Part shown: positions 3,961-46,710 of the stretch, one piece after another
How the letters are laid out: the number at the start of each line of letters is the position of its first letter
How positions within the stretch are numbered: position 1 is the stretch's first letter
Assembly (NCBI GenBank): GCA_913009695.1
Contig: CAJVWV010000007.1
Location: forward strand, 1 to 49,721
Direction: 5' to 3'
Source: an uncultured bacterium
Lineage (GTDB): Bacteria; Patescibacteriota; Patescibacteriia; Patescibacteriales; SZUA-104
DNA length: 49,721 nt
Made by a program: the position numbers and the translations under genes
The notes under the pieces: generated by a model
Seen by the model: only the letters and a program-made list of their open reading frames with translations
What the model was told of the DNA's origin: nothing
Databases searched by the model: none

Positions 3961-3996
3961 AAAAATCAGTTAAAAAATAAATTGAGGAGGCGTATT

Positions 3997-5797: not shown

Positions 5798-5825
5798 TTG
5801 ACAAAATTTTTAAAAACTATATACT
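5798..5825 (+). promoter_or_regulatory. Promoter of the arginine leader transcript 1
   Basis: TTGACA (5798-5803), 16-nt spacer, TATACT (5820-5825). The expected start site is about 5831-5833, so the leader ORF ATG at 5833 would be at or within two bases of the mRNA 5' end: a leaderless leader peptide. Confidence 0.8.
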
Positions 5826-5832
5826 TAAATAT

Positions 5833-5886
5833 ATGAACAAAATAACACAAATTTTAAACAACAGAAGACGCCCTATTAGTGCTTAG
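5833..5886 (+). CDS. Arginine leader peptide 1 (17 aa)
   Basis: MNKITQILNNRRRPISA. Codons 11-13 are AGA AGA CGC (5863-5871), three consecutive Arg codons, two of them AGA. No Shine-Dalgarno is seen, but the promoter places the ATG at the transcript start. Its stop codon lies directly before the strand that would form the antiterminator. In a classical attenuator a ribosome stalled here for lack of charged tRNA-Arg blocks the 5' pairing strand and lets transcription proceed. The same design recurs at 16974-17051, which strongly supports function. Confidence 0.75.
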   Translation: MNKITQILNNRRRPISA

Positions 5887-5946
5887 CTAATGAGGTTATT
5901 TTTGCTTAATTAAAATTTGTAGAAAGACCTCAATTGAGGTTTTTTT
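5872..5946 (+). promoter_or_regulatory. Arginine attenuator 1 (alternative hairpins)
   Basis: Strand 1 CCTATTAG (5872-5879, under a ribosome stalled at the Arg codons) can pair with strand 2 CTAATGAGG (5887-5895, one bulge). Strand 2 core TGAGGT (5891-5896, plus one G-U) can instead pair with ACCTCA (5927-5932), which is the 5' arm of the terminator ACCTCAATTGAGGT (5927-5940) followed by a T-run. Stalling at Arg codons frees strand 2 and disrupts the terminator; full translation covers strand 2 and ends transcription. The 2:3 helix is short (6-7 bp), so it is the weakest part of the model. Confidence 0.7.
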
Positions 5947-6012
5947 GTTTATATAATTATTTATTTTATTATTAAATACCGGCGGAAAATATCAATCATG
6001 TAATATCAATTA

Positions 6013-6107: not shown

Positions 6108-7355
6108 ATGAAATATAAATGTTTACTGTGTGGTGATGAAGTAACAAAAAATGAAGTTGATAACCATAAGGCTGTGCATCATCCAAATGAAATGCATTAT
6201 GGAATTATGTGGCCTATTGAGGCATCGGAAGACATACATCAATATTCACCAAAAATCCAAATTCTTGAATCTTCTCTTATTGCAAAAGTTTTAGGAGTTA
6301 AAAAGGTGTATATCCGAAATGAGTGTCAAAACAAATCTGGCAGCATGAAAGATTACCTGGTTCAAACAGCAGTGCAAGACGGTCTTAAAAAGGGTTTTGA
6401 AGTATTTACCGTTGTCTCATCCGGAAATCATGCTTTTTCATTGGCAAAAATAACAGATGAATATAATGTTAAGTCATTATTATTCACAACTGCTACATCT
6501 TCAAAAATACCCCATCTTTCTCAGTATAGTAATTCAATAATACTTGCTGTTAAGGATGCGATTTTTGAAGACGTTTATCGGATAGCTGGTAAAAAATTAT
6601 TTAAAGGTGTGTATAATGCTAATGTTTCAAATGAGTTGTCCATTCTTGGGCTACATCCTGTTGCACTTGATATATCTTGTCTAAATCCATTGCCTTCACA
6701 TATTTTATCTGGTGTGGGGAATGGCAGTTATTTAGCAGGTATAGCTCTGGGCTTAGAGAGAATTGATTGTGTAGGATCCAAAATAGTTCCTGTCGGAATG
6801 AAGGGCGCTTTTCCAACAATTAATGCATTCGTGAACGATAAATTAATTCATGAATATTCTGATTTTCTTGTTTCAGAAGATTTAATTGATGCCGCAGAAG
6901 GATCTATTGCAACTGAAAGCTACAGCATGCCGCAATTAATGCATGCTGTAAAAGTTACAAAAGGTTTTCCTTTAGGCGGACTATTAAACGATGATCTCAA
7001 AACAGCCTACAGACTTCTATCTCGTGATGAATTTTTAATTAAAAACGGTATCATTCCTGAACCAACCGGTATCATGGGATTAGCCGCCGCCCTTAAGCAC
7101 AAGGATCAGTTTAAAAAAGAGGATGTTTTGCATTTTTCTTTTACTGGTCATGGCTCAAAAGATGAACACGGCATTACCAAGCTACTGCCCGATATTGGAA
7201 GTTTACTAATCTCTGAGGCACGTAAATCCAGGCCTGACTTGGTTGCAGATCAAGTGGAAAACACAAGAAATGACAACGTTTTTTTTGTCGAGAAAGACAT
7301 CTCCCCAGAAAAAATTAACGAAATTATTGAAAATTGGAGGAACCAACGAAGATGA
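6108..7355 (+). CDS. Threonine-synthase-like PLP enzyme with N-terminal zinc finger
   Basis: 415-residue fold-type II PLP-dependent enzyme. N-terminal C2H2-type metal site (C5, C8, H20, H24/H25). The Schiff-base lysine is K81 in NKSGSMKDY, matching TGSFKDR of threonine synthases; SSGNHAFSLA at 104-113 is the substrate asparagine loop; SGVGNGSYLAG (201-211) the phosphate glycine loop; EPTGIMGLAAAL a later family motif. Relatives act on O-phosphohomoserine, O-phosphoserine or similar activated amino acids. It is first in an operon behind the arginine attenuator and overlaps the ATP-grasp gene by 4 nt, so the two are translationally coupled. RBS GGAGG precedes ATG 6108. Fold is certain; real substrate is unknown, and 'threonine synthase' as such may be wrong because the substrate loop differs. 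Confidence 0.85.
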   Translation: MKYKCLLCGDEVTKNEVDNHKAVHHPNEMHYGIMWPIEASEDIHQYSPKIQILESSLIAKVLGVKKVYIRNECQNKSGSMKDYLVQTAVQDGLKKGFEVFTVVSSGNHAFSLAKITDEYNVKSLLFTTATSSKIPHLSQYSNSIILAVKDAIFEDVYRIAGKKLFKGVYNANVSNELSILGLHPVALDISCLNPLPSHILSGVGNGSYLAGIALGLERIDCVGSKIVPVGMKGAFPTINAFVNDKLIHEYSDFLVSEDLIDAAEGSIATESYSMPQLMHAVKVTKGFPLGGLLNDDLKTAYRLLSRDEFLIKNGIIPEPTGIMGLAAALKHKDQFKKEDVLHFSFTGHGSKDEHGITKLLPDIGSLLISEARKSRPDLVADQVENTRNDNVFFVEKDISPEKINEIIENWRNQRR

Positions 7356-8584
7356 AAAGAATAATCATTGATAGCCAAAGCAGTCGGTTGTTTGTTGGAG
7401 TGGAAGTGGAACAAAACTACGATCAAAGAGGGGGACTATGTGAGGTTGGCGAAGGTCACTTAATTATTACAATTAACCCGATTGATCAGTCATACTTGAA
7501 CTATTGGAGTGACACCCTTGGCTTCACGCTACCGACTTTTTTAGTTGCCGGGCCATTTGATCCCAAATATACTCTGTCCGAACACATCATTAATAAACAT
7601 AGACTGCAAAAGGCAATAAAAGATTTTGTGGGAGACAGTAAAGCTAGACTAGAATTTTTCTGTATTGAAGAAACAGAAAAAAAACTTACTGAAGTGCTGG
7701 GAATTCCGGCATATTGCAACTTTGATGTCTCTATTCCTTTTGCGAAGAAAATTTTGTTTAAAAAAACTTGCGAAGAAATCAGTATTCCGACCTCACCTTG
7801 GTTTTATTCCGACTATCCCGAAAAAACAATTTCTCGAGTAAAGGAAGTGCTTGACAAAAAAATTCCAATTCTTCTAAAAGTTGATGACGGAACTGGCGGT
7901 ATCTCGTGTGGCGGTATTTTGAAACTTGATTCAAAAAAAGATCTTCAAGACAAAACCATTGATGACTGGCAAAATAATGGCATAAAATTTTTCAGCGAGA
8001 ATATTATTCCAGATGCTGCTATCGAAGTATCGCTACATTGGGAAATAACCGAAAATGGTACAATTGAACGAATTAAATTTTTCAATCAACTTTCTGACAA
8101 TTTTTCATATGCCGGAGCTAGCTATCCATTAAATGGTGTCGCGCCTAAAAATATCATAAAAAACCAATTAATAAACAAACTTGGTCCGCATCTTGTTAAA
8201 AAGGGCGCTAAAGGATTTTTCTGTTGCGACATTATAGTAGATAAAGATGGTATTCCCTACTGGATAGACTTAAATCCCAGAAAAGGGGCTATACTGTATG
8301 TATGGAGCTATGTAAGAAGATTGTCACAAATACACTTTAACCCCGATGAAAAAATTTACTTCCACCACAAACATTTTTCGGTGCCGCAAAAAAAAGGACT
8401 GACCTTTAATAAGATAAAAGAAACATTAATCGATTTCTTGGATCCAAATAACATTAATCCTTTTGTTGTTATTACTAATCCTGGAGTTATTCAGTATGGT
8501 TATGTTGATATTACAGGCATTTCCATTAACTCCAAGGCAGAAGCTGAACAAGTGTTTAAAGAAGCTCAGAAAAGATTAGATTAA
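7352..8584 (+). CDS. ATP-grasp ligase (amino-acid/peptide ligase type)
   Basis: 410 residues. The first ~130 form a pre-ATP-grasp region; the ATP-grasp fold follows with a nucleotide-binding lysine (LLKVDDG), the glycine-rich loop DGTGGISCGG at 179-188 and the Mg-binding DLNPR at 306-310. Such enzymes join a carboxylate to an amine or thiol through an acyl-phosphate. The N-terminal region plus a short C-terminal tail recalls peptide ligases of the pheganomycin PGM1 type, but I hold that loosely. Start ATG 7352 overlaps the previous stop (ATGA); a TTG at 7334 would contain the RBS. Arginine-dependent control suggests an arginine-related substrate. Ends before a 15-bp hairpin. Confidence 0.82.
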   Translation: MKRIIIDSQSSRLFVGVEVEQNYDQRGGLCEVGEGHLIITINPIDQSYLNYWSDTLGFTLPTFLVAGPFDPKYTLSEHIINKHRLQKAIKDFVGDSKARLEFFCIEETEKKLTEVLGIPAYCNFDVSIPFAKKILFKKTCEEISIPTSPWFYSDYPEKTISRVKEVLDKKIPILLKVDDGTGGISCGGILKLDSKKDLQDKTIDDWQNNGIKFFSENIIPDAAIEVSLHWEITENGTIERIKFFNQLSDNFSYAGASYPLNGVAPKNIIKNQLINKLGPHLVKKGAKGFFCCDIIVDKDGIPYWIDLNPRKGAILYVWSYVRRLSQIHFNPDEKIYFHHKHFSVPQKKGLTFNKIKETLIDFLDPNNINPFVVITNPGVIQYGYVDITGISINSKAEAEQVFKEAQKRLD

Positions 8585-8589
8585 ATTTC

Positions 8590-8640
8590 TTGAATAAATA
8601 GGGAAAGGATAGTATAATTTACATTATACTATCCTTTATT
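8590..8640 (+). promoter_or_regulatory. Promoter embedded in a 15-bp terminator-like hairpin
   Basis: A perfect inverted repeat, AAAGGATAGTATAAT / ATTATACTATCCTTT (8604-8618, 8623-8637, loop TTAC), with a T-rich tail is a good terminator for the ATP-grasp gene. The same bases hold a promoter, TTGAAT (8590-8595), 17-nt spacer, TATAAT (8613-8618), for the epimerase gene at 8647. Termination and initiation therefore overlap. Confidence 0.65.
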
Positions 8641-8646
8641 TTTCTT

Positions 8647-9717
8647 ATGAAAATTACAAAAATATCAATTAAAAAATTTAATGTAGAACTAAATAATTCA
8701 TTTGCATATTTTAATGTATCATTAAATTATTTGCCTTATGCGCTAATAACTCTTGAAACAAATCAAGATTTTTTTGCGTACGGTGAAGTGTCGCTCGCAT
8801 GGGATATTACCGGAGAAACTCAAGATGGCGCCTTGGAAATTGTAAATAGAGTTAAGTCGCTAATTGAGCAAAAAGAAATAAATAAAGTAAGCGATATTGA
8901 AAATATTTTACAAAACATCAATATTCATATTTATGGAAACTCAGCTTTAAAATGTGGAATTGAAATGGCGCTTTTTGATGCTTTAGGAAAAACAAAAAAA
9001 ATGCCAATATATAAATTACTAGGCGGCGCAACAAAAACATTAATTACTCCTCAAAAAGTTTTAGATTACAACGAACAAGACTTAGCCAAAATTTTCAAAA
9101 TCATTGAAAAATCATTAAGTGAAAATATAAAAATTTTTAAACTTAAAGCAGGCAACGAAAATATTATTGGGATACTTAAAAAAAATTTTGAAAAATTTCC
9201 TAAAATCAATATTGTATTAGACGTTAACCAAGGGTGGTATAGCGCCAAGAATGCAATTTCTATAATCAAACAAATTGAACATTATAATATATTGTGGATA
9301 GAACAGCCAATTTATTACAAAGATTATAATGGGCTCGCTCAAATTAAAAAAGAAACTAATATCCAGATTATGGCTGATGAAAGCTGTCATGATTTGTTAG
9401 ATTTAGAAAATTTAGACAAAAGAGGCTGTGTTGATTACATAAATATCAAACTTGCAAAAAGCGGTGGAATTTTAGAAGCAATAAAAATGATTGCATTTTG
9501 CAATAAACATGGCGTTAAATACATACTTGGAGACATGATACATTCTGAAATAGGAACAGCTTATAATTTACATGCTAGTACGTTAGGTAATTTTATGGCA
9601 TATGATTTAACGATGCCAGATAGATTAAAAAATAAAATTGCCGAAGGTATTAAATTTAAAAATTCGCAAGCCTACATTCCAAACAATAGCGGCTTAGGAA
9701 TAAAACTTATCAAATAA
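8647..9717 (+). CDS. Enolase-superfamily epimerase/racemase (MLE subgroup)
   Basis: 356 residues with an N-terminal capping domain and a (beta/alpha)8 barrel. All catalytic residues of the muconate-lactonizing subgroup are present: K165 and K167 (FKLKAG), metal ligands D192 (LDVNQG), E219 (IEQP), D244 (MADES), general base K268 (NIKLAKSGG), and D296. This pattern fits dipeptide epimerases (Ala-Glu type) and N-succinylamino acid racemases. Lying next to an M20 hydrolase, and near GNAT acyltransferases, it could belong to a route like the known GNAT/racemase/M20 desuccinylase pathway turning D- into L-amino acids, or to dipeptide turnover. No clear RBS; the embedded promoter gives a ~20-nt leader. 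Substrate unproven. Confidence 0.85.
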   Translation: MKITKISIKKFNVELNNSFAYFNVSLNYLPYALITLETNQDFFAYGEVSLAWDITGETQDGALEIVNRVKSLIEQKEINKVSDIENILQNINIHIYGNSALKCGIEMALFDALGKTKKMPIYKLLGGATKTLITPQKVLDYNEQDLAKIFKIIEKSLSENIKIFKLKAGNENIIGILKKNFEKFPKINIVLDVNQGWYSAKNAISIIKQIEHYNILWIEQPIYYKDYNGLAQIKKETNIQIMADESCHDLLDLENLDKRGCVDYINIKLAKSGGILEAIKMIAFCNKHGVKYILGDMIHSEIGTAYNLHASTLGNFMAYDLTMPDRLKNKIAEGIKFKNSQAYIPNNSGLGIKLIK

Positions 9718-9726
9718 AAGGAAAAA

Positions 9727-10827
9727 ATGAAAAATAATAAATTAAAAAAAATGCAAGATTTAATCTTAAAAGCAATTAAAATTAAGTCAATTGAATCAAG
9801 CCCGAAAGAAATTCTAAAAAGTTTAGAAATATTCAAAAAAGAATTTTCCTCTGATTTTATTATTAAAGATTACCTGTTCCAGGGTAGACCAATGATTGTT
9901 CTTAGTAATACTAAGTCAAAAAAAGTTGATTTTATACTTGCCGGCCATTCAGATGTTGTTCCGGGCCCAGATGAGCTATTTCAACCGAAAACAGAAGGAG
10001 ACATATTAAAAGGGAGAGGCGCCTACGACATGAAAGCCCCCTTAATAGCCGCCTTATTTGCTTTAAGGCAATACTTAAAGGATAGCGACAATTTAAAGGT
10101 TGCTGTTTTTATTACAACTGATGAAGAAAAAGATGGTTTAAGTTCTAAATACTTAGTTAAGGAGATTGGGTATCAAGCAAAATTTGCAATTTTACCTGAC
10201 GGTGGCAGCGAAAAAGAATTAATTACTGTTCAAAAAGGTTTTTTGCAGCTTAAGCTTATAACTGATGGTGTAAGTGCGCACGCTTCAACTCCCTTTGAAG
10301 GAGATAATCCCATACATCATATATTAACAATTTATAACGAACTATTAAAAAAATTTCCTCTGCCAACCCATGCGGATGACTGGAAAACTAGTATTTGTAT
10401 CACAAAAATAAATGCGGACGCCGGCTCAATCAACCTTATCCCAAAAACTGCCATAACATGCCTAGACATTAGATATGTCAACACCATCCATGTGAAAAAA
10501 ATTATCAATATCATTAAAAAAACAGCTCCCGGGATAAACATTAAAATTATTGCGGAAAACGAATTACTTGCTATAGATAAAAATAACCAACATGTTGCCA
10601 CCCTTAAAAATGCGATGAATAAATTTTCTGATAAACCAGTAAAATTATCAAGAGAATGCAGCACTTCTGATGCTGTGTTTTTATCAGAACAAGGAATACC
10701 ATCCGTACTCTTTAGGCCGAAAGGCGGAGGAACGCACCAATACGAAGAATGGGTAAGCCAGGAATCCTTAGTTAATTTTTATAAAATTATTTTAAATTTC
10801 TTGAAAAAGTATAATATTGGCAACTAA
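9727..10827 (+). CDS. M20-family metallohydrolase (ArgE/DapE/dipeptidase type)
   Basis: 366-residue di-zinc amidohydrolase. Zn ligands and catalytic residues: H74 and D76 (AGHSDVVPG), bridging D101 (GRGAYDMK), catalytic E133 and E134 (TTDEEKDG), later D198-region LPDGGSEKE and the C-terminal His in GGGTHQYEEW. The lid domain has AHASTPFEGDNP. Family members remove acyl groups (acetyl, succinyl) from amino acids or split dipeptides. It starts 9 nt after the racemase stop with AAAGGA, so both are one operon; an N-acyl product of the racemase would be an obvious substrate. It is distinct from the second M20 protein at 13502. Confidence 0.87.
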   Translation: MKNNKLKKMQDLILKAIKIKSIESSPKEILKSLEIFKKEFSSDFIIKDYLFQGRPMIVLSNTKSKKVDFILAGHSDVVPGPDELFQPKTEGDILKGRGAYDMKAPLIAALFALRQYLKDSDNLKVAVFITTDEEKDGLSSKYLVKEIGYQAKFAILPDGGSEKELITVQKGFLQLKLITDGVSAHASTPFEGDNPIHHILTIYNELLKKFPLPTHADDWKTSICITKINADAGSINLIPKTAITCLDIRYVNTIHVKKIINIIKKTAPGINIKIIAENELLAIDKNNQHVATLKNAMNKFSDKPVKLSRECSTSDAVFLSEQGIPSVLFRPKGGGTHQYEEWVSQESLVNFYKIILNFLKKYNIGN

Positions 10828-10869
10828 CTATCTTTATAATTACTTTAAATTATAAAAAATAAAAAGCAT

Positions 10870-10898
10870 AAATTATTATTATTTTAGAATAATAATTT
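10870..10898 (+). repeat. 11-bp AT hairpin before argG
   Basis: AAATTATTATT / AATAATAATTT with a seven-base loop. It has no good T-tract, so it may be a weak terminator or an mRNA 5' structure. A -10-like GATAAT follows just before the argG ATG. Confidence 0.45.
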
Positions 10899-10914
10899 AG
10901 TATGCGATAATATT

Positions 10915-12174
10915 ATGAAAAAAGAATCAAATTATGTAAAAGTCGCTTCACATGAAGCAAAAAAAGGAGAATTTAAAAAATGCCTTCTTCTGTATTCAGG
11001 AGGATTAGATACTTCTGTTATGCTTAAATGGATACAGGAAGAGTATGCCTGTGAAATTATAGCCCTGACTATTGATCTTGGTCAGACCGCGGACAACCTT
11101 GAAGAAATAAAACAAAAAGGATTAAAGTTGGGGGCAAAAAATGTAATAATTTATGATGCGAAAGATAAATTTGCGGACATCCTTCTTGCGGAAGCAATAA
11201 AAGCTAACGCGGATTATCAAGGTGGATATGCCTTGAGCACGCCGCTTGGCAGGGTAATAATTTCAGAAGCGGCGGTAAAAATCGCAAAAGAATACGACTG
11301 CACTGTTATTGCCCATGGATGCACGGGAAAAGGAAACGATCAAGTTAGATTTGAGGGCTATATGACTACATTAAATCCTAAGATAAAAATAATTGCCCCG
11401 GTAAGAGAATGGGGCATGGGAAGACAAGAAGAAATTGAGTATGCCAAAAAACATAATATTCCAATTAAGCAGCAGGCAGACAAACCTTATTCATATGATG
11501 AAAATATGTGGGGCAATACAGGGGAAGGCGGGGAAATAGAAGATCCAAAACTTACCCCTCCTTTAAAAAATATTTTACAATGGTGCAAAACTTTAGAGGA
11601 CGCCGAAAACAAAGAAGAAATTATTGAGATTAATTTTTTTCAAGGTGTACCCAAAAAATTAAACGGTATGGATATGAAATTAAGCGATCTAATTATGGAA
11701 TGCAACAAAATCGGCGCGAAGCATGGCGTAGGCGTTTTTCATCTTATTGAAGACAGATTAGTTGGATTAAAAGTAAGAGGAGTATATGAAAATCCAGGAG
11801 CAAGTATTTTAATTCAAGCGCATAAAAAACTTGAGCAATTAGTTTCTACCAGAGAAGAAAATGAACTAAAAAGATTTATGGATACAAAGTGGGCATATTT
11901 GACATATGCGGCAAAATGGTATGATCCTGTGATGCATCATATTTATGCTTTTATAAATAGCCAAAATAAAAAAGTGACAGGAAAAGTAAAAGTAAAATTA
12001 TTTAAAGGCAACATTGATGTAGTAGCGTTAGAGTCAAAATATTCTCTTTTTGATGAAAATCTCGCAACCTTTGAAAGAAATGCATCGTTTAATCAAAATG
12101 CTTCAGCCGGATTTATTGAAATATATAATCTTGCTCAAAAGACAGCATTTAATCTTTACGATTTTAAGGACTAA
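10915..12174 (+). CDS. argG: Argininosuccinate synthase
   Basis: 419 residues. Catalyses citrulline + aspartate + ATP to argininosuccinate, the penultimate step to arginine. The PP-loop is SGGLDTS at 28-34, followed by typical blocks such as YALSTPLGR, AHGCTGKGNDQVRFE and the aspartate/citrulline region PYSYDENMWG. A ~20-residue N-terminal extension precedes the usual start; no RBS or better ATG is visible, so ATG 10915 is retained. argH follows after 14 nt. In this island the pair would convert citrulline to arginine. Confidence 0.96.
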   Translation: MKKESNYVKVASHEAKKGEFKKCLLLYSGGLDTSVMLKWIQEEYACEIIALTIDLGQTADNLEEIKQKGLKLGAKNVIIYDAKDKFADILLAEAIKANADYQGGYALSTPLGRVIISEAAVKIAKEYDCTVIAHGCTGKGNDQVRFEGYMTTLNPKIKIIAPVREWGMGRQEEIEYAKKHNIPIKQQADKPYSYDENMWGNTGEGGEIEDPKLTPPLKNILQWCKTLEDAENKEEIIEINFFQGVPKKLNGMDMKLSDLIMECNKIGAKHGVGVFHLIEDRLVGLKVRGVYENPGASILIQAHKKLEQLVSTREENELKRFMDTKWAYLTYAAKWYDPVMHHIYAFINSQNKKVTGKVKVKLFKGNIDVVALESKYSLFDENLATFERNASFNQNASAGFIEIYNLAQKTAFNLYDFKD

Positions 12175-12188
12175 CTTAAATCCTAATT

Positions 12189-13388
12189 ATGCGCAAAAAT
12201 AAACTTTGGCAAACAAACGATAGCAATCTACATCCATTAGTGGAAGCTTTTACGGTTGGCGGCGATTACATGCTTGACCAGCAACTTTTACCTTATGACA
12301 TCCGGGCAAGCATTGCTCATGCTGAAATGCTTTTTGAAATAGGCATATTAAATAAAGAAGAGTTAACTCGGGCAAAAAAGGGTCTAAATGAAATATTGTC
12401 TAAGTGGAAAAATAATGAATTTATCGTTAAAAAAGAGCAAGAAGATGGACATACGGCAATTGAGCAGTATCTAACCGAAAATCATGGAGATGTTGGTAAA
12501 AAAATTCATACGGGAAGAAGCAGAAATGACCAATCATTGGTTATGGTTAGATTATTTATGAAAGAAAAGTTAATAGAAATACAAAAAGAATTAAATAATC
12601 TAACAACAGTTTTTGATAAAAAAATTCAAGAAAATATAAACATTTTGATGCCCGGCTATACTCATTTGCAAAAAGCTATGCCGACAACAGTCGCTATATG
12701 GTTAGATTCTTTTTTATCTGCCCTTAAGGATTTTGAAATTTCATTACAGTCAACAATAAAAATAATTGATCAAAATCCGTTAGGCTCGGCTTCAGGGTTT
12801 GGTATAAGTAATTTTCGGTTAAATAGAAAATTTACCGCGAAAAAATTAAACTTTAAAAAAGTTCAAGAAAATTCAATGTATTGCGGGTTGTCTAGGGGGT
12901 ACTTCGAAAATATTGCCTTGCAAACATTATCACAAGTGATGATCATTTCCGGAAAGCTTGCTAATGACATGCTGTTGTTTACAACACAAGAATTTAATTT
13001 TTTTTCATTGCCAAACAACTTTACAACAGGATCATCAATTATGCCGCAAAAAAGAAATTATGATATTTTTGAAATAATGAGAGGAAATGTAAATGTATAC
13101 AATTCATATCAAAATCAAATTCAAAATATAATTTCTTCAATTGGCAGCGGCTATCAAAGAGATCTGCAATTAACAAAAAAACCATTTGTTCAAGGTGTGA
13201 ATTTATGTGAGATAACCGTAAAATTATTAATAGAAATTATTACATCAATACAAGTCAACGAGGATATACTGAAAAAATCAATGACAAAAGATTTGTTTGT
13301 TACAAATGATGTATATGAACTTGTAAAAAATGGAAAAAATTTTAGAGAAGCATATATTGAGATAAAAAATAAATGGAATAAAAAATAA
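12189..13388 (+). CDS. argH: Argininosuccinate lyase
   Basis: 399 residues, fumarase/aspartase superfamily; splits argininosuccinate into arginine and fumarate. Signatures: TGRSRNDQ (conserved region 1), PGYTHLQKAMPTT (region 2) and the catalytic-loop signature GSSIMPQKRN (region 3). It is about 60 residues shorter than most bacterial ArgH, mainly at the C-terminus, which is still coherent (VNEDILKKSM, FREAYIEI). It sits 14 nt after argG and must be co-transcribed. All key catalytic segments remain, so it is likely active. Confidence 0.95.
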   Translation: MRKNKLWQTNDSNLHPLVEAFTVGGDYMLDQQLLPYDIRASIAHAEMLFEIGILNKEELTRAKKGLNEILSKWKNNEFIVKKEQEDGHTAIEQYLTENHGDVGKKIHTGRSRNDQSLVMVRLFMKEKLIEIQKELNNLTTVFDKKIQENINILMPGYTHLQKAMPTTVAIWLDSFLSALKDFEISLQSTIKIIDQNPLGSASGFGISNFRLNRKFTAKKLNFKKVQENSMYCGLSRGYFENIALQTLSQVMIISGKLANDMLLFTTQEFNFFSLPNNFTTGSSIMPQKRNYDIFEIMRGNVNVYNSYQNQIQNIISSIGSGYQRDLQLTKKPFVQGVNLCEITVKLLIEIITSIQVNEDILKKSMTKDLFVTNDVYELVKNGKNFREAYIEIKNKWNKK

Positions 13389-13501
13389 AAAGAGCGTCAA
13401 TTATATTAGTTGGTCTTATATATGGTTGACTAAAGTTTTTTTAAATGATAAGGTGTTTTTATCAAAAGATCTTTAAAACTAAAAATAAACGGAGGCGTAA
13501 A

Positions 13502-14674
13502 ATGAAATTATTAGAATTAGCAGAAAAATTAATTAGCTTTAACACAGTAAGTCAGCAATCAAGTACGCAGGGAATTTCTGATTTTATTAGTAATTACTGC
13601 GAAGGTGCAGGTTTTAAAATTGAACAATATCCATATGAACTGCCAAACGAAAAGCTGAAAAAAATCAATGTCGTAGCTCGTAAAGGGAGTAGTGAAAGTA
13701 AACTTGCCCTTTCGGGTCATATGGATACAGTGCCCTTTGATAAGGCGAAATGGTCTACTGACCCGCTCAAACTTACCTTAATTGACAACAAATATTATGG
13801 AATGGGTATTGCAGACATGAAACTTTTTCTTGCAATTGCCATGAAAGCGGGAGAGGCTATTAAAGAGTCTGAACTAAAGCACCCATTCGCCCTATACTTT
13901 ACTAGCGACGAAGAAGTGGGCTGCCTTGGCGCAAGACAATTAATTCGCCAAAATAAAATTCATGTAGCAAATTCAATTGTAATCGGAGAACCGACCAACA
14001 TGGCCCCTCTAAATCTTCATAAAGGATACATATTCGTAAGAATAATATTGAAGGGTAAGTCTGGACACGGCTCTGACCAGAGAACAGGAAGAAGCGTTAT
14101 CCATTTAGCTCTTATGCCTATACTGCAAAAATTGTTCATGTTTGAAGAGATGCTCAAAAAAATAACGGACAAACGATTTACCCCCCCATATCCGACATTA
14201 AACATTGGTGTTATTACAACAGACGGAGAGAAAAAAGATGACAAATCTTCAAAAAACAAACTTGCAGAATACTGTAAAATTGATCTTGAAATACGACCTA
14301 TTCCCGGTCAGAGTTCGAATGAACTATATTCAATTTTAGAGCGCCTACTAACAGAAACTATAAGAGAAATTGATGGAATTGAAATAATGTTCAAACTTGA
14401 ACGCACACCAACCCCAGCTATGATAACTAGTGAAAAAACAGAAATAGCTCAAGCTGTAAAAAAAATCAGCGGAGAATCGATGGATTCTGTATGCTTTAAT
14501 ACTGAAGGCGGAGTTTTTAATAAAAACGGATCTGAAACAATAATCTGGGGGCCTGGCAGCATTAAGCAGGCTCATCAACCCAGGGAGTATGTTGATGCCC
14601 GTTTTTTGCAACAAAACATCGTTGATCAGTATATAAGCTTAATAAGAGAATTCTGCTGTAAAGGAGGAAAATAA
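13502..14674 (+). CDS. M20 deacetylase, ArgE/DapE-like
   Basis: 390 residues. Zinc and catalytic motifs: SGHMDTVP (His, Asp), GMGIADMK (bridging Asp), TSDEEVGCLGA (catalytic Glu pair), IGEPT and a C-terminal GPGSIKQAHQPREYV with the last Zn-binding His. The order and spacing fit acetylornithine deacetylase/succinyl-diaminopimelate desuccinylase. ATG 13502 is preceded by GGAGGCG; the frame is open up to an ATG at 13445 (19 more codons with a run of Arg/Lys codons) but that start has no RBS. One base separates it from the next gene, an acetylglutamate-synthase-like protein, so acetylated ornithine-pathway intermediates are the likely substrates. Confidence 0.88.
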   Translation: MKLLELAEKLISFNTVSQQSSTQGISDFISNYCEGAGFKIEQYPYELPNEKLKKINVVARKGSSESKLALSGHMDTVPFDKAKWSTDPLKLTLIDNKYYGMGIADMKLFLAIAMKAGEAIKESELKHPFALYFTSDEEVGCLGARQLIRQNKIHVANSIVIGEPTNMAPLNLHKGYIFVRIILKGKSGHGSDQRTGRSVIHLALMPILQKLFMFEEMLKKITDKRFTPPYPTLNIGVITTDGEKKDDKSSKNKLAEYCKIDLEIRPIPGQSSNELYSILERLLTETIREIDGIEIMFKLERTPTPAMITSEKTEIAQAVKKISGESMDSVCFNTEGGVFNKNGSETIIWGPGSIKQAHQPREYVDARFLQQNIVDQYISLIREFCCKGGK

Positions 14675-14675
14675 G

Positions 14676-15722
14676 ATGAAAGAATTGCGCGTAATAATTG
14701 AAACTTTGAAATATGTACAGGATTTCAGAGACTCTATAATATTCATCAAACTTGGTGGAAAAATTATAGGTCGAGCTAAAGAGCTTGGTATTATCAAGGA
14801 CATATGCCTGCTTAAAAAAATAGGGATTAACATTATTGTAGCCCTTAACTCAAATGATGTTGACAAGGATCAATGGAAAAATCCCGAATGCAGTTTTCAG
14901 TATTTAGACATTGAAACCGCGGGAGAAACTCACAAATACTTATCCCAAGGAAAAATCCCGGTCATACATTGTCTTCACACAAAAAGCATGTCAAGCGACA
15001 AAACGATCGCCACTCTAAGCGGCAAACTCCGTTCAAATAAGCTGATTTATGTTACTGACCGTGAAGGAGTATTTGACAATAAAAAACAGCTCATTCGGGA
15101 AGCATCTGTTAATAGTGTAAGAGAGCTAATTGCCAGTAAGGCTGTAACCAGTAGAATGAAAGAAAAACTTGAGTCTGCAATAAAAGCATGTGAACTGGGA
15201 GTTTACCGCGTGCATATTATTAGTGGATTTAAGAAGGGATCATTGCTCAAGGAAATATTTTCCTGTGATGGAGTTGGTACCATGATATACAGCGTATCGC
15301 CCTATACTAACATACGAAAGGCAAAACCAGAAGACATTGGCAACATTTTTGATATACTAAAAAGCTCACTAACAACTTCCATTAATTATGCCGATATATC
15401 ATCAAAAATTGAAAACTTCTATGTTTTCACTGTAGATGAACAAATACATGGCTGCGTAATGATGGAAGAAAACACTGAATCAGGAATAGCTGAACTGATT
15501 TTTGCAGCGACATCACCTTCTTATGAAAGCTCCGAAGCAATAAAAGAGTTAATAGAGTATATTATCCAAAAAGAAGTATCCAGGAAAATAAAAAAAATTA
15601 TTCTGGAACCGGAAAAAAATTCTATTTGGCTTGGCTTGTACCCATGGTTTTTGCAACTGGGTTTTAAGAAAGAAGAAGAAGAAAAAGAACAAAATAAAGC
15701 ATGGATTAAATCCCTAAAATAA
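14676..15722 (+). CDS. AAK + GNAT protein, N-acetylglutamate synthase-like
   Basis: 348 residues. Residues ~1-210 are an amino-acid-kinase (NAGK-like) domain: FIKLGGK near the N-terminus and VHIISGFKKGSLLKEIF...GVGTMI, the hallmark end of the NAGK/NAGS kinase domain. The ATP/acyl glycine patch of true kinases (HGGG) is replaced by LNSND, suggesting a regulatory non-kinase domain as in ArgA. Residues ~215-348 form a GNAT acetyltransferase domain (IRKAKPED..., FLQLGFKKE). So it probably makes N-acetylglutamate from glutamate and acetyl-CoA, the first step of ornithine synthesis. RBS AAGGAGG; one nt after the deacetylase. Terminator follows. ArgB, ArgC, ArgD and ArgF are not in this window. Confidence 0.8.
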   Translation: MKELRVIIETLKYVQDFRDSIIFIKLGGKIIGRAKELGIIKDICLLKKIGINIIVALNSNDVDKDQWKNPECSFQYLDIETAGETHKYLSQGKIPVIHCLHTKSMSSDKTIATLSGKLRSNKLIYVTDREGVFDNKKQLIREASVNSVRELIASKAVTSRMKEKLESAIKACELGVYRVHIISGFKKGSLLKEIFSCDGVGTMIYSVSPYTNIRKAKPEDIGNIFDILKSSLTTSINYADISSKIENFYVFTVDEQIHGCVMMEENTESGIAELIFAATSPSYESSEAIKELIEYIIQKEVSRKIKKIILEPEKNSIWLGLYPWFLQLGFKKEEEEKEQNKAWIKSLK

Positions 15723-15774: not shown

Positions 15775-16286
15775 CTACAAAGTTGAAAACCATACGGATG
15801 TATTATGCTTTTTATGCGCATAATATCTATCTTCGCCAACAGTACTTAATTTTTGACCAGACAAAACGTACTTTTTGAAACCATATTTATTTAATAAATT
15901 TTCGTCCAGTCCCCCCCCAATAGCGTAACAATTGTCTTATAGCCTCTTCGTCTAATTCTCTTTATAATACTCTCCACTAGACTCATCTCATGACCTTGAT
16001 TCTTATAAGAATCAGCAACTGTTAAATGCACTATTTCCACAGCTGACTCTACTTCAGATAAAACCCTAAAACCAATCACACCGACAATCTCTTCTTCAAC
16101 TACAAGGTTTATATAATTTTTATGGTTCCTTTCAAGGTAATCTAAGCTACGATCAACAGGACCTGCTTTTTGCACGCTAATCAATGCTTTCCATAGCATT
16201 TTAAATTTTGGGTCACCTGTTTTATTGATGTCATCTACTTCAGTAATCTTAACATCTTCATGCTTAATATCTTTCTTTTTTTTCAT
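15775..16286 (-). pseudogene. GNAT acetyltransferase, frameshifted at a G8 run
   Basis: Acetyltransferase of the GNAT fold, related to the gene upstream (16417-16902). The intact reading frame from ATG 16286 gives 131 residues with the acetyl-CoA region VVEEEIVGVIGFR...YKNQGHE and stops early at 15891. The break coincides with eight C on the plus strand (15911-15918). With one more (or two fewer) G the frame continues as DENLLNKYGFKKYVLSGQK and beyond to a TAG at 15775, which is the expected GNAT C-terminus. Either a sequencing/assembly error, a recent mutation, or a phase-variable tract. RBS AAAAGGAGA precedes the ATG. Confidence 0.75.
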
Positions 16287-16416: not shown

Positions 16417-16902
16417 TTATATATTTAATCGCAACATTTTCTCATTGCACTTAGGATCATTGGGACCGCCAGCATTTCTTGGACAATATTTACAATCATT
16501 TAATATTTTCTGTGGAAAAATTTTTATATCTACTCCAGCAAAACCAAACTTTTTAAATAAACTTACTGCATCCGTTAAGACAAAGGTGCTATTATAACCT
16601 CTTTTTTTAATAATTTTTATAATCTCCTCAATTAAACGAGTTCCGATTCTCTTACCTCTATAATGTTTATCAACCACCAATGAAATAATTTCTATATGTG
16701 AGTTGGGCCATATTTTAAAACCGATTGTACCAACCACTTTTTCACCATCTAAGGCGACTAAATAATTTTTATATTTTTTAAAAATCTGATTATAGCTTCT
16801 TTTAATAACCGAGGCATTAAGAGACACCTCAGCAATAAGGTCAACAATATCTTTTATATTTTTTACTTTTGATGGCTTGATTATTATATTCTTTTTTTTC
16901 AT
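16417..16902 (-). CDS. GNAT acetyltransferase, ArgA-like
   Basis: 161 residues with one GNAT domain: acetyl-CoA motif region VVDKHYRGKRIGTRLIEEI and a C-terminal Cys cluster DCKYCPRNAGG...KC that resembles the C-terminal segment of short, stand-alone N-acetylglutamate synthases (ArgA type). It would acetylate glutamate for ornithine/arginine synthesis. That idea is supported by context: it is the first gene behind the second arginine-codon attenuator and lies opposite an AAK+GNAT NAGS-like gene. The GNAT fold is clear; the substrate is inferred. Confidence 0.78.
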   Translation of the reverse strand: MKKKNIIIKPSKVKNIKDIVDLIAEVSLNASVIKRSYNQIFKKYKNYLVALDGEKVVGTIGFKIWPNSHIEIISLVVDKHYRGKRIGTRLIEEIIKIIKKRGYNSTFVLTDAVSLFKKFGFAGVDIKIFPQKILNDCKYCPRNAGGPNDPKCNEKMLRLNI

Positions 16903-16915: not shown

Positions 16916-16999
16916 TTAAAAAGAAACAGCCTCAAGCTTGAGACTGTTTTTTATTCTATAAATAAAGGTATTTTTATACACTAACAAACAATCTCAAGT
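16916..16999 (-). promoter_or_regulatory. Arginine attenuator 2 (terminator and antiterminator)
   Basis: Minus-strand terminator: AAACAGTCTCAAG pairs with CTTGAGGCTGTTT (16925-16949) followed by CTTTTT. The antiterminator strand CTTGAGATTGTTT (16986-16998) pairs with the terminator's 5' arm (16937-16949) over 13 bp with a single G-U. It lies inside the last codons of the leader. A strand-1 sequence ACAAACAATC (17031-17040, leader codons 4-7) is perfectly complementary to GATTGTTTGT (16984-16993). This gives the full 1:2, 2:3, 3:4 set of a classical attenuator. Confidence 0.82.
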
Positions 17000-17051
17000 A
17001 AAATCTCGAATTTCTTCTGCGCCTGATTGTGATTGTTTGTATATTTTTCAT
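16974..17051 (-). CDS. Arginine leader peptide 2 (25 aa)
   Basis: Begins MKNIQTITIRRRRNSR and ends LRLFVSV. Codons 10-13 are AGG CGC AGA AGA (17024-17013), four Arg codons in a row, with two more Arg further on (six of 25). The start of the peptide resembles leader 1 (MNKITQILNNRRR). The promoter just upstream puts the ATG at about the first transcribed base. A ribosome paused at the Arg codons would cover strand 1; one reaching the stop covers strand 2. Expected effect: the GNAT gene is expressed when charged tRNA-Arg is scarce. Confidence 0.8.
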   Translation of the reverse strand: MKNIQTITIRRRRNSRFYLRLFVSV

Positions 17052-17112: not shown

Positions 17113-17149
17113 CAAATAAAAAACGGGAGAATCTCTTTCTCTCCCGTTT
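17113..17149 (-). terminator. Terminator of the cysteine-controlled operon
   Basis: AAACGGGAG / CTCCCGTTT stem with T-rich tail on the minus strand, ten bases past the ATC-hydrolase-like stop codon. Confidence 0.85.
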
Positions 17150-17158
17150 TTACTTGTA

Positions 17159-17638
17159 TTATTTTGATCTTAATATTAATCGGCAATATTTATCTCCACA
17201 ACCTATTGTTTGAGGTATTTCTACATCAAATCGTTCAACTTTAGCTCTGCCCCTGTCTCCTTCCATGGCTATATCACAAAGTAAAGCTATTTCTTTTTTA
17301 GATGCGCCAAGTTTCTTCCACGCCTCTACTAACGGGCAATAGTGAAAGTTAAGCTCGCTTTCTTTTTTAGTTAATTTAGCGCCCTTGCTTTCAAAGACAA
17401 GATTGCTGACACCATTAAGGTGTTGGCTTGCCCACTTATCCGGAGTACTTACTTTACCTCTTTTTCCGGCTTTAAAAATCCCGAATTTAAAAATAGCCTG
17501 CCTGGCTAACTTTTCAGCTTTTTTTATTCCATAGACCTTTTTCATTTCCCTAAATAAAAAAAATAAAACTGCGGCCCGATCCTCAATAGCGGAACGAACA
17601 GCCAAAACTAATTCTTTTTCTTTTTTTGTTTTTTTCAT
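17159..17638 (-). CDS. L-2-amino-thiazoline-4-carboxylate (ATC) hydrolase family protein
   Basis: 159 residues. The pattern fits the ATC hydrolase family: N-terminal helices with RAAVLFFLFREMKKVYG, then HYCPLVEAWKKLGASKKEIALLC, FDVEIPQTIGCGDKYCRL. These Cys positions are the family's conserved ones. The founding enzyme opens the thiazoline ring of L-ATC to carbamoyl-cysteine on the way to L-cysteine, though many homologues are uncharacterised. RBS AAGGAGG before ATG. It is the last gene of an operon whose leader holds a Cys-Cys-Leu-Cys-Cys run, which fits a cysteine-supplying role very well. Family assignment is good; exact substrate is inferred. Confidence 0.78.
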   Translation of the reverse strand: MKKTKKEKELVLAVRSAIEDRAAVLFFLFREMKKVYGIKKAEKLARQAIFKFGIFKAGKRGKVSTPDKWASQHLNGVSNLVFESKGAKLTKKESELNFHYCPLVEAWKKLGASKKEIALLCDIAMEGDRGRAKVERFDVEIPQTIGCGDKYCRLILRSK

Positions 17639-17716: not shown

Positions 17717-18517
17717 TTAATCTTTTTTATTAACTCTTAACCACTCAATTAATTTCACAATATTATTTACCATATGTTCATGATACTCCTTGCCTTTTTC
17801 AGCTGACGCGAATTTAGCGTTGGAAATAGCTCCGGTTTTTGTAAACTTTTTTTGTTCTTCACTATTCCATGAAATATCCATACTGTCCCCACCGCCACCG
17901 AATAAATCATCCGCAATAAAATCAGAAAATATTTCTTTCATATTAACATTTTCAGAATCTAATAACTCTTTTTTAATCAAATCAGGATATTTATACATTA
18001 TCTCAGAAATCTCTAACTCTCCAGCATGATGCTCGTTTTCTTGTTTTATTTTTTTGGCAATAGTCGCGCCTATTTTCATTGGGTCAATAACGGCGAAAAA
18101 AACGTCTTTTAATTCATTTTCATGCAACTCGTGTGTTGCGCCAATTAAAGCCGGCAAGTTCGAATATTTATGTCCATTAATAATTAATATCTTTTTAAAG
18201 CCGTGCTTGGCAAGACTTATGCAAACATCACGCACAACATTTATTAGGGTATCAAGCCGTAAAGAGATTGTCCCGGCAAAACCCATGTGGTGGCTTGAAT
18301 TTCCAAACCATAAAGGAGGCGTTGATAAAACACCTGTTTTTTTTGCAACATCTTCCGCTAAAGAAATTGCCACATAAGAATCCAGTCCAAGGGGACCAGC
18401 TAGACCATGTTCTTCTGTACTTCCTATTGGAAACAAAATTATATCATCTTTTTTAAGATGATCTTCTGTGTCTTTCCATGTTAATTCATTTAACCAAATT
18501 TTATTATTGTTTTTCAT
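17717..18517 (-). CDS. Creatininase-family metal-dependent amidohydrolase
   Basis: 266 residues from the preferred ATG at 18517 (ELTWKDTEDHL is the usual start). Motifs: FPIGSTEEHG (metal-binding Glu/His), GLDSYVA, HHMGFAGTISL, ILIINGHKYN-like NGHKYS, and NEHHAGELEISEI (HAGExET type). These are the metal ligands of creatininase-type enzymes, which open or close cyclic amides. An in-frame ATG at 18556 lies in the preceding terminator hairpin and is unlikely. Located between an unrecognised gene and the ATC-hydrolase-like gene under a cysteine leader, it may hydrolyse a cyclic sulfur-containing precursor. The link to cysteine is inference. Confidence 0.85.
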   Translation of the reverse strand: MKNNNKIWLNELTWKDTEDHLKKDDIILFPIGSTEEHGLAGPLGLDSYVAISLAEDVAKKTGVLSTPPLWFGNSSHHMGFAGTISLRLDTLINVVRDVCISLAKHGFKKILIINGHKYSNLPALIGATHELHENELKDVFFAVIDPMKIGATIAKKIKQENEHHAGELEISEIMYKYPDLIKKELLDSENVNMKEIFSDFIADDLFGGGGDSMDISWNSEEQKKFTKTGAISNAKFASAEKGKEYHEHMVNNIVKLIEWLRVNKKD

Positions 18518-18525
18518 AATTTTAA

Positions 18526-18565
18526 AATAAAAGGGTGAATGGATAAAATTATCCATATCACCCTT
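18526..18565 (-). terminator. Internal terminator hairpin in the cysteine operon
   Basis: Minus strand AAGGGTGA-T-ATGGATAA / TTATCCAT-TCACCCTT, about 16 bp with one bulge, followed by a T-rich stretch, just past the stop of the first gene. It should reduce transcription into the creatininase gene. Confidence 0.75.
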
Positions 18566-18570: not shown

Positions 18571-19242
18571 TTATTTATTCACAAACCACGGGCAATCGCT
18601 GCGATATGGTTTATATGACCAAAAATAAACTCCGGGCATAGGCGGTAAAACTTCTTGATATTTAGGATCAGAATATGACCACCATATCATGTTTTTAAAT
18701 GTTTCTGGTAAAAATATACCTTCTGCTATTCTGGTAGAATAATACTTTTTTGCGGATTCTTTTCTTTCTCCATTTACACTGATTTTAGAGGCCATATACT
18801 CTAACTTTTCAGATATTGAAACTTTTTCCCACTCATCATCAGATATGGGCCGTATGTGATTGCTGATTCCCCAGCTGCTCCATAGATCAGACAGCCAAAC
18901 CGTATCCCACCCTCTTATTTTACATTCTTTTTCAATTTCAGACAAGTACTGAGTATCTTCGTAACCATTCATTTTGCCATGGCTATCCGCAAGAATTATG
19001 GTAAGTTTTACTCCTGATGAATATATTTCATTAATTCTAGAAATTATATTTTCTAAAAATTTGAAACATCTTTTGTCAAAAGGAGTTACTTCGATTTTAT
19101 CCGATAAACCCCAAAATCCAACTAATGGAATTTGCTCATTTTTCTTTTCACAATTTTCTAAAATACTTCTTACTAATATTTCATCAAACATGCCCCTTCC
19201 AACTCGTTTTGATGAAAAAATACCGCAAATATCATCAACCAT
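18571..19242 (-). CDS. Unrecognised protein, first gene of the cysteine-controlled operon
   Basis: 223 residues, soluble, no signal peptide or membrane segment. I do not recognise it with confidence. The segment IPLVGFWGLSDK (residues ~38-49) followed by IYSSGVKLTIILADSHGKMNGY (two blocks, ~73-94) recalls the substrate region of isocyanide synthases of the DIT1/PvcA group (Y-x-PG-x-x-x-x-I-x-SD), but the match is weak. Aromatic-rich C-terminus (WWSYSDP, PGVYFWSYKPY). RBS AAGGAGG at the start. It lies directly behind the Cys attenuator, so its product probably helps obtain cysteine or handles a cysteine-linked metabolite. Confidence 0.6.
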   Translation of the reverse strand: MVDDICGIFSSKRVGRGMFDEILVRSILENCEKKNEQIPLVGFWGLSDKIEVTPFDKRCFKFLENIISRINEIYSSGVKLTIILADSHGKMNGYEDTQYLSEIEKECKIRGWDTVWLSDLWSSWGISNHIRPISDDEWEKVSISEKLEYMASKISVNGERKESAKKYYSTRIAEGIFLPETFKNMIWWSYSDPKYQEVLPPMPGVYFWSYKPYRSDCPWFVNK

Positions 19243-19283
19243 TTTAATTCCTCCTTATTTAAAATTTTATTTTAAAGATCATT

Positions 19284-19378
19284 AATAAAAAAACAGCCTA
19301 TGATTAGGCTGTTCTGTTATATCTATGAATTTGTAATAAATATATTATTTATTCTTAAACACACTAAAACAGCCTAAT
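19284..19378 (-). promoter_or_regulatory. Cysteine attenuator (terminator and antiterminator)
   Basis: Terminator on the minus strand: ACAGCCTA-ATCA-TAGGCTGT with a run of seven T (19284-19313). The antiterminator strand ATTAGGCTGTT (19378-19368), inside the leader ORF after the Cys codons, is perfectly complementary over 11 bp to AACAGCCTAAT (19313-19303), the terminator's 5' arm. A short strand-1 CCTA (within codons 16-17) can pair with TAGG of strand 2. Ribosome stalling at the Cys codons would leave strand 2 free and prevent termination. Confidence 0.82.
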
Positions 19379-19431
19379 TCACTAGGTTCACAACATAGAC
19401 AACAAATTGTTTGTGAAATTATTCTGTTCAT
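19345..19431 (-). CDS. Cysteine leader peptide (28 aa)
   Basis: Begins MNRIISQTICCLCCEPSE; a fifth Cys is at position 21. Codons 10, 11, 13 and 14 are TGT (19404-19390). Five Cys in 28 residues, four within five codons, is extreme for a short ORF in this genome. Promoter, terminator and alternative pairing match the two arginine leaders. The predicted 5' untranslated part is only about nine bases and has no Shine-Dalgarno. Expected effect: genes 19242 to 17159 are expressed when charged tRNA-Cys is scarce. Confidence 0.8.
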   Translation of the reverse strand: MNRIISQTICCLCCEPSELGCFSVFKNK

Positions 19432-19446
19432 ATGTTTATTATTTAT

Positions 19447-19475
19447 ATATTATCAAATGCCTTATCTCTCGTCAA
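19447..19475 (-). promoter_or_regulatory. Promoter of the cysteine leader transcript
   Basis: Minus strand TTGACG (19475-19470), 17-nt spacer, TAATAT (19452-19447); expected start near 19440. Confidence 0.75.
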
Positions 19476-44974: not shown

Positions 44975-45062
44975 TAATTATGTACCGCTGATTGCGCTGA
45001 TTATTTATGATTACCGCTGATTTTTATCAGCGTTAATCAGCGTAAAATCAGCGAAATCAGCG
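44975..45062. repeat. AATCAGCG repeat block 1
   Basis: Direct and inverted copies of AATCAGCG (CGCTGATT) separated by irregular short spacers, between the ORF6N gene and a 3' gene tail. Not CRISPR-like: units overlap and spacers are only a few bases. Confidence 0.85.
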
Positions 45063-45131
45063 GTTCAGTTTCTCAATCTCTTCTTTAATAACCTTATATT
45101 CCAAGGAGTCAGTAGAATATTGATCAAGCAT
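45057..45131 (-). pseudogene. Orphan 3' gene tail, copy A
   Basis: Encodes MLDQYSTDSLEYKVIKEE then IEKLNR and stop. It matches the last 24 residues of the 47361-48200 protein. The open frame starts just after an in-frame stop, so it is only a tail. The stop codon is supplied by the AATCAGCG repeat. Confidence 0.75.
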
Positions 45132-45145
45132 TTATTTAGATTCGT

Positions 45146-46012
45146 CTAAACTTTTTTCTTCAACCGTTTTTTCTTTCCTGACAACGGCAAATAATTTTTT
45201 CGAGAAACAATTTTCTTCCCCGACTGTCGTTCTATGTCTTTTTTTGTTCTGCCGGCTACGCTACCGCCATCGCGCGCATCTTTTTTAAGAGGATTAAATC
45301 CTCTTGAATCCCTTTCTCGCGTAAATTTCGTTGTGGTGGCTTCGCCCAGCATGGTTAAAATCAGCTCAATGTCATCCATGTGGTCGCGCAAATTTTCCCG
45401 CTTTAACCCTTTTAATTTTTTGTAATCATCAACTTTCAAGCCAAAAGCGCTTTCCATTATTTCGTTTGTTAAAATAGCAAATTCCAAATTATTTTTAGCG
45501 CCTCTTGTCTTCCATTCATCAGTTAAGTCCTGCCGCACCGCTATGCCCCGCGTCCTTTTATCTATCCAGTCCTTCGGATACCCCTTTTTTTTGTAAATCT
45601 CTTTCATCCTGTCCATGGCCAGTTCCGGATTCTCTATTTCCTGTATTCTTTCGTGCCCGACTTTAGCCAACCACCGCTTAAACGGCTCGGCATTAGGCGA
45701 AGGAATTGACTGGATAATGCGAAAAATTCCTTCAGTATTAGCGCAATTTAATTTTTGCGAACCTCCTTCAGTTTGGACGGAAAGGGGGGTGGCAATTTGC
45801 CCCCACCCTTTACTAAGCTCAGGATCTCGGCGGCGCATATCCTTTATATAACCGCTGGGCTGGGCTGAATCCGTTAAAACAGCAACAACATCAATAATAA
45901 CAAACCACCACTCATTATTGTAAATAATCTTTCGCACCTGCCTGCCTTTAAAACGCTGATTGCGCTGATTATTTATGATTAACGCTGATTTTTCGCTGAT
46001 TATTTTTTTCAT
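45146..46012 (-). CDS. BRO-N domain protein
   Basis: 288 residues. VRKIIYNNEWWFVIIDVVAVLTDS and NCANTEGIFRIIQSIPSP...FKRWLAKVGHERI define a BRO-N/antirepressor DNA-binding domain, here of the longer chromosomal type (with NNLEFAILTNEIM and basic C-terminus KKKRLKKKV). The first ~18 residues are encoded by CGCTGATT repeats, and the start overlaps the upstream GxxExxY gene. Probably mobile cargo; function unknown. Confidence 0.85.
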   Translation of the reverse strand: MKKIISEKSALIINNQRNQRFKGRQVRKIIYNNEWWFVIIDVVAVLTDSAQPSGYIKDMRRRDPELSKGWGQIATPLSVQTEGGSQKLNCANTEGIFRIIQSIPSPNAEPFKRWLAKVGHERIQEIENPELAMDRMKEIYKKKGYPKDWIDKRTRGIAVRQDLTDEWKTRGAKNNLEFAILTNEIMESAFGLKVDDYKKLKGLKRENLRDHMDDIELILTMLGEATTTKFTRERDSRGFNPLKKDARDGGSVAGRTKKDIERQSGKKIVSRKNYLPLSGKKKRLKKKV

Positions 46013-46394: not shown

Positions 46395-46404
46395 AAAAAA
46401 CTAA

Positions 46405-46500
46405 CCGCTGACTACGTACCGCTGATTACGCTGATGCACCGCTGATTTTGCGCTGATTTTATCAGCGTTAATCAGCGCGAAATCAACGTAATCAGCGGTT
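46405..46500. repeat. AATCAGCG repeat block 2
   Basis: Same octamer in both orientations, between the GxxExxY gene and gene tail copy B. Confidence 0.85.
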
Positions 46501-46602: not shown

Positions 46603-46633
46603 TTATTTAATATTAGCTAAATTTTTTACTATT

Positions 46634-46705: not shown

Positions 46706-46710
46706 GATAG

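Follow-up and report, generated by a model that had tools for sequence, protein, structure and literature searches.

Is the short, cysteine-rich reading frame in front of an operon at positions 19284-19475 of the window a device for measuring cysteine, and if so, what does it tell us about the genes behind it? The window is the whole stretch of DNA analysed here (49,721 nucleotides), and represents contig 7 of a patescibacterial genome of 0.94 Mb in 43 contigs, with an estimated completeness of 80%. A sequence-only reading had proposed a cysteine-codon attenuator within this span. The span itself was right, and all parts of this element were located in the sequence on the minus strand of the window, a point that the reading had left unsaid.

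The cysteine leader and its calculated switch

The leader ORF (MNRIISQTICCLCCEPSELGCFSVFKNK*; 19431-19345, minus strand) comprises 28 codons followed by TAA, and has Cys codons at positions 10, 11, 13, 14 and 21. Codons 10-14 read TGT TGT CTA TGT TGT (CCLCC), which is the run of four Cys in five codons reported before, and codon 21 is the fifth Cys. The ORF had also been placed right behind a promoter. Indeed, a promoter-like site is present on the minus strand at 19447-19475, where TTGACG (19475-19470) is followed after 17 nt by a TG-extended TAATAT (19452-19447), itself 15 nt from the ATG of the leader. This site comes from a consensus scan alone, and such a match is by itself no evidence of function.

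Within the leader ORF, 3' of the CCLCC codons, we find ATTAGGCTGTT (19378-19368, minus strand), the exact complement of 19303-19313. The perfect 11-bp antiterminator of the earlier reading is thus present, with ATTAGGCTGTT as its 5' arm and AACAGCCTAAT (19313-19303, minus strand) as its 3' arm. The latter doubles as the 5' arm of an intrinsic terminator, AACAGCCTA-ATCA-TAGGCTGTT (19287-19313, minus strand; -13.6 kcal/mol), in which the hairpin at 19313-19292 is accompanied by the expected seven T at 19293-19287. The leader region as a whole folds with -41.7 kcal/mol (z = -6.1), and none of 200 shuffles folded equally well.

By calculation, the antiterminator and the terminator are mutually exclusive pairings. 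To model the ribosome, all RNA was deleted as far as 10 or 13 nt beyond the A-site codon, and the pairing probability of the terminator was then computed. With the 10 nt edge, this probability stayed at 0.00 for Cys10, 11, 13 and 14, was 0.06 with codon 15 in the A-site, and rose to 1.00 for codon 16 and beyond, and over both edges it was at most 0.06 at Cys14 and reached 1.00 from codon 15 or 16. The calculated switch point sits right behind the CCLCC codons: stalling at Cys10-14 frees the antiterminator arm in the model, and passage beyond these codons covers it. Cys21 cannot be the sensing codon, because it falls in the terminating zone.

How often such an arrangement arises by chance was estimated from shuffled sequence. 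ORFs of 12-45 codons with at least four Cys in five codons occurred 0.03 times per shuffled window. We then defined a full build as a terminator, an antiterminator of at least 11 bp and an ATG-started short ORF ending at most 90 nt upstream of the terminator. Shuffling the window 80 times (4.0 Mb) yielded six such combinations, and not one of these was Cys-rich or contained a 4-of-5 run of a single residue, whereas the real window holds exactly two full-build attenuators, the Cys leader and an Arg leader, both with 4-of-5 runs; the criteria were chosen post hoc, with the element already seen, so these figures serve as guides, albeit with a large margin. The observation of a Cys-leader attenuator is confirmed as correct and lies well above chance.

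The downstream operon

Three genes follow on the minus strand. The first (18571-19242) encodes a protein of 223 aa that gave no match in Pfam or NCBIfam, PF05141 (DIT1_PvcA) included. One homologue (P0002, in L025) matches PF05141 at 7e-5, and its 22.9 bits lie below the curated cut-off of 26.4. A structural model built from a four-sequence alignment reached a pLDDT of 84.5; a single-sequence model with a pLDDT of 42 was set aside. The best PDB matches of the former are the isonitrile synthases PIsnA and PvcA (Z 15.6; 9dhm, 3e59; 207-210 residues), and the next family is that of the tyrosyl-tRNA synthetases (Z 12.6). Hits to ferritin in the PDB profile search, and to unrelated proteins with phmmer, were taken as chance and dropped. 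On the predicted model, the first protein has the isonitrile-synthase (DIT1/PvcA) fold; since PF05141 is not matched above the curated cut-off, we use the label PvcA-fold and refrain from assigning the protein to the isonitrile synthase family.

The second gene (17717-18556) encodes a creatininase-family amidohydrolase (PF02633, 203.8 bits) and the third (17159-17638) a member of the ATC hydrolase family (PF14196, 59.1 bits against a cut-off of 28.1), so both family assignments made earlier hold. A strong predicted terminator, AAAAACGGGAGA...TCTCCCGTTTTT (17119-17151, minus strand), closes the operon.

How might these genes relate to cysteine? The isonitrile-synthase fold is familiar from natural-product synthesis, and to our knowledge neither this fold nor creatininase is known as a cysteine enzyme. 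An isocyanide made on cysteine is expected, from general chemistry, to close onto the thiol and yield a thiazoline, and we speculate that such a closure could tie the first and third operon proteins together. The step from carbamoyl-cysteine to cysteine is carried out by a second enzyme, not by ATC hydrolase. The earlier statement that the founder of the ATC hydrolase family releases cysteine had to be corrected, as it does not do so itself: in Pseudomonas, ATC is converted to cysteine via carbamoyl-cysteine (PMC10821248). In the genome as a whole, the search turned up a single PALP-family gene, located in an arginine operon (see below), so CysK may be absent, with the caution that the genome is about 80% complete. 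Likewise, no cysS was found in this genome, again about 80% complete, at the cut-off used.

Recurrence in a WWE3 genome

The sequence-only reading had staked its proposal on the leader and its Cys codons being kept in relatives that carry the same operon. Among 380 genomes drawn from the phylum, the first gene was found in two, the window's own genome (G000) and the metagenome-assembled genome of a WWE3 bacterium (G031; contig PFXB01000104.1); the relatives in the search have small genomes of 0.6-1.5 Mb. In the WWE3 genome, the only other one found, Cys10, Cys13 and the antiterminator/terminator arrangement all recur, and the conserved codons and architecture are thus known from n = 2 genomes (G000 and one WWE3 MAG).

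On PFXB01000104.1, the leader (662-742) lies upstream of the first gene (1249), which is followed by the creatininase gene (2377). The first proteins are 29% identical between the two genomes and the adjoining creatininases 59%. The WWE3 leader, MFMLLTSSTCTACDTAENCWEVGVIG*, has Cys at codons 10 and 13 as in the window leader, with a lower density of Cys codons overall (3/26). In its leader region, CTGTTGGG-AGGTT can pair with AACCT(CC)CCCAACAG, and a terminator with seven T is present. With the ribosome at Cys10 or Cys13, the calculated terminator probability is 0.00; from codon 17 or 18 it exceeds 0.9 (0.91-0.96 from codon 18). None of 3000 shuffles of the upstream region gave a comparable combination of Cys ORF, antiterminator and terminator.

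This recurrence bears on two other explanations of the element. Since the polyprenyl synthetase gene upstream of the window leader ends at 19481 and no closer terminator is listed on its strand, the hairpin could be an ordinary terminator closing the upstream isoprenoid operon (21501-19481), with the ORF and the second arm being there by chance. However, the promoter-like site lies between that operon and the hairpin, the combination with a 4-of-5 run is absent from 4 Mb of shuffled sequence, and the same build recurs in WWE3 behind an upstream gene unrelated to that of the window; we regard this explanation as highly improbable. The second explanation is translational attenuation, where stalling on the leader would change access to the start of the first gene, and it can point to the gap of 102 nt between the end of the leader and the start codon of that gene. 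The alternative structure is, however, a terminator with seven T in both the window and WWE3, and the GGAGGAA site of the first gene (~19248-19254) lies outside the hairpins, which leaves translational attenuation with hardly any probability. We thus retain transcription attenuation as the preferred reading.

Downstream of the WWE3 creatininase gene begins the gene for cysteinyl-tRNA synthetase (cysS, PF01406); the 171 nt that separate the two contain no visible terminator. As far as gene content goes, cysS in the apparent WWE3 unit, encoding the synthetase for just the amino acid that the leader would sense, is the strongest support for Cys sensing. No ATC hydrolase gene was seen beside the WWE3 copy within its short contig. 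The WWE3 leader lies ~500 nt before the first gene with an inverted-repeat stretch in between: positions ~800-1220 of the fetched locus (L015), ~400 nt in all, contain the inverted-repeat pieces GCCAGCTGGCGGAGC and CCCGCCGAGTCGGCGGG, and judged by its sequence this segment resembles the insertion of a small mobile or repeat element.

Further relatives were sought in several ways. A scan of 30 cysS loci from other class members gave no Cys leader there; its sole flagged hit (L008) is a creatininase locus. A single-sequence search of the genome contigs with the first protein gave no match. Outside the Patescibacteria, the best creatininase relative is that of Dethiosulfatarculus (37%), and no PvcA-fold neighbour was found in the DNA fetched around such relatives. 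Two more distant PvcA-fold relatives, in other Patescibacteria of the class, stand outside this operon, one fused to asparagine synthetase (L034 5893-8166, genome G405) and one fused to an NMT1/THI5-like domain (L035 4191-5708, genome G628). When the fetched loci were scanned for leaders, neither of these two was flagged as having a Cys leader. A weak ATC-hydrolase hit in G026 was rejected as it lies within a long frame that reads like trigger factor. As a separate observation, G405 has an intact cysS as well as a second, broken cysS-like stretch with in-frame stops (C2 1749-2647, C3 11573-12481).

Sister arginine leaders in the window

The window also contains two leaders with Arg codons. The first (MKNIQTITIRRRRNSRFYLRLFVSV*; 16974-17051, minus strand) precedes an ArgA-like GNAT gene (16417-16902) and has its terminator at 16949-16924. 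A gap of 7 nt separates its promoter, TTGACA-16-TATTAT, from the ATG. The calculated terminator probability climbs from 0.01-0.04 at Arg10-13 to 1.00 at codon 15 or 16 and beyond. The second (MNKITQILNNRRRPISA*; 5833-5886, plus strand) belongs to an element at 5798-5950 with a terminator at ~5926-5950. It lies just downstream of argS (3982-5763) and in front of an operon (6108-15722) with PALP, ATP-grasp, epimerase, M20, argG, argH, argE and argA/B-like genes, and its promoter (TTGACA-16-TATACT) is likewise 7 nt before the ATG. The switch of this leader is weaker, with terminator probabilities of ~0.35-0.43 at the Arg codons versus ~1.0 at either end of the ORF. Because the ATG lies only 7 nt behind the -10 hexamer, the messages of the Arg leaders may start at or next to the ATG, and that of the GNAT leader is probably leaderless. 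In both cases the Arg codons match the arg genes behind them, which supports the same reading for the Cys leader.

The Arg leaders also help in weighing another explanation of the Cys leader, namely that the Cys-rich nascent peptide is itself the sensor and binds a metal such as copper through CxxC, thereby regulating an isonitrile (chalkophore-like) pathway. A CxxC (C10-C13) is present in both the window and the WWE3 leaders, the first gene has the predicted isonitrile-synthase fold, and diisonitrile lipopeptides act in copper acquisition (PMC9600254). Moreover, the CruR/DUF2946 system provides a precedent for a Cys-containing upstream ORF that senses Cu with a CXXC (PMC9426467). The CruR protein, however, is long, carries a RAPP arrest motif at its C-terminus and works by Rho-dependent termination (PMC9426467), whereas the leader peptides here have 26-28 aa, lack RAPP in both genomes and are followed by an intrinsic terminator. 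In addition, two Arg leaders of the same build cannot be metal sensors, and cysS lies within the WWE3 unit. Taken together, we consider a metal sensor very unlikely and continue with the sensing of charged tRNA-Cys.

When the regions of the Cys leader and of the GNAT Arg leader are compared, the alignment extends from the promoter through the terminator, and 0.4% of shuffles score as high. This hints at common descent of the two, but is no proof of it, given AT-rich DNA and a shared architecture. No convincing case of a further leader was found in a 400-kb sample of the same genome, and a Thr-rich candidate in another locus (L105) was rejected because it overlaps a longer gene out of frame.

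We made some additional observations in the remainder of the window. An Rfam scan of the window returned tRNAs only. A second GNAT gene (15800-16286, minus strand) seems to be cut short just behind a G run (~15910-15920), and sequence in another frame past the break looks like the rest of a GNAT; either a frameshift in the cell or a sequencing error would account for this. At 45057-47495 (minus strand), several short ORFs have near-repeated ends (..EYKVIKEEIEKLNR, ..ERKVIEEEVAKLNR, ..EYKVIQEEIEKLNR) and form a small repeated protein family. Lastly, the Illumina adapter AGATCGGAAGAGC occurs as an exact match near both contig ends (74-86, minus strand; 49545-49557, plus strand), and the window's extremities are probably artefacts of assembly.

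Proposed mechanism and role of the operon

Given the recurrence in WWE3 and the calculated switch, both of which support the earlier attenuator reading, we think it very likely that the element works by ribosome-mediated transcription attenuation, sensing charged tRNA-Cys and turning the operon on at cysteine shortage, most likely for cysteine supply or salvage. We infer the transcription start, the translation of the leader, the stalling and the termination in the cell, as well as the operon product. RNA polymerase would start a few nt before the leader ORF, with a ribosome following it. When charged tRNA-Cys is scarce, the ribosome would stall on the CCLCC codons and leave ATTAGGCTGTT free to pair with AACAGCCTAAT; the terminator would then be blocked and the operon transcribed. 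When charged tRNA-Cys is plentiful, the ribosome would advance and cover the arm, and transcription would end at the T-run. Under this scheme, the isonitrile-synthase-like, creatininase-like and ATC-hydrolase-like proteins would be expressed on cysteine shortage.

Of the downstream genes, cysS in WWE3 and the ATC-hydrolase-family gene of the window would fit a link to cysteine. Through these families, the operon's role would most likely be to help supply or salvage cysteine. A more far-reaching version, which we offer tentatively and think rather less likely to be right than wrong, is an undescribed route of cysteine acquisition or salvage in ultrasmall bacteria, from which the usual cysteine pathway may be missing: the PvcA-fold, creatininase-family and ATC-hydrolase-family enzymes would act on a cysteine-derived thiazoline or isocyanide and be switched on by shortage of charged tRNA-Cys, and the Cys leader and an Arg leader would go back to a common ancestor that was copied, with the sensed codons exchanged.

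What makes the locus interesting is above all the operon to which the leader draws attention, along with the presence of three sister leaders. As the leader names the amino acid that is measured, it provides a functional handle on an otherwise unreadable operon, and the PvcA-fold enzyme and the creatininase become testable as cysteine enzymes. Together with the two Arg leaders, it makes a clear case of leader-peptide attenuation in Patescibacteria, where gene regulation is little studied. With three leaders of the same build and two sensed amino acids inside 14 kb, the window also lends itself to asking how such a switch comes to read another codon.

Comparison with known systems

The isonitrile synthases PvcA and PIsnA resemble the first operon protein in the fold of its predicted model, but share only 13-14% identity with it, have about 310 aa rather than 223 and stand beside other neighbours.

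The Cys attenuator itself shares with the classical enterobacterial attenuators of the trp/his/leu type the runs of the sensed codon and the mutually exclusive antiterminator and terminator. It differs from them in the amino acid sensed and in the organism, and the leader starts lie here very near the promoters.

Cys-specific leaders had been called rare in the sequence-only reading. They are indeed uncommon, but precedents exist: Cys-rich leader ORFs precede cys operons of Mycobacterium and Propionibacterium (PMC1262725, PMC4633059), and the uORFC-8-2 motif before cysS in Rhodobacterales is a Cys leader with a terminator (PMC8632094). The former resemble the window leader in having a short ORF with Cys-codon runs ahead of cysteine-related genes, but these codons lie close to the stop and terminator hairpins were not observed, whereas the window unit has both terminator and antiterminator. 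The uORFC-8-2 motif has a short ORF with tandem Cys codons (its positions 14-15), stems, an intrinsic terminator and a proposed ribosome-mediated attenuation (PMC8632094), and differs from the window unit in its phylum and in its downstream genes. A limited literature search gave no report of leader-peptide attenuation in Patescibacteria. Hence, while the mechanism is classical and Cys leaders are known, the host group and the controlled operon appear to be new.
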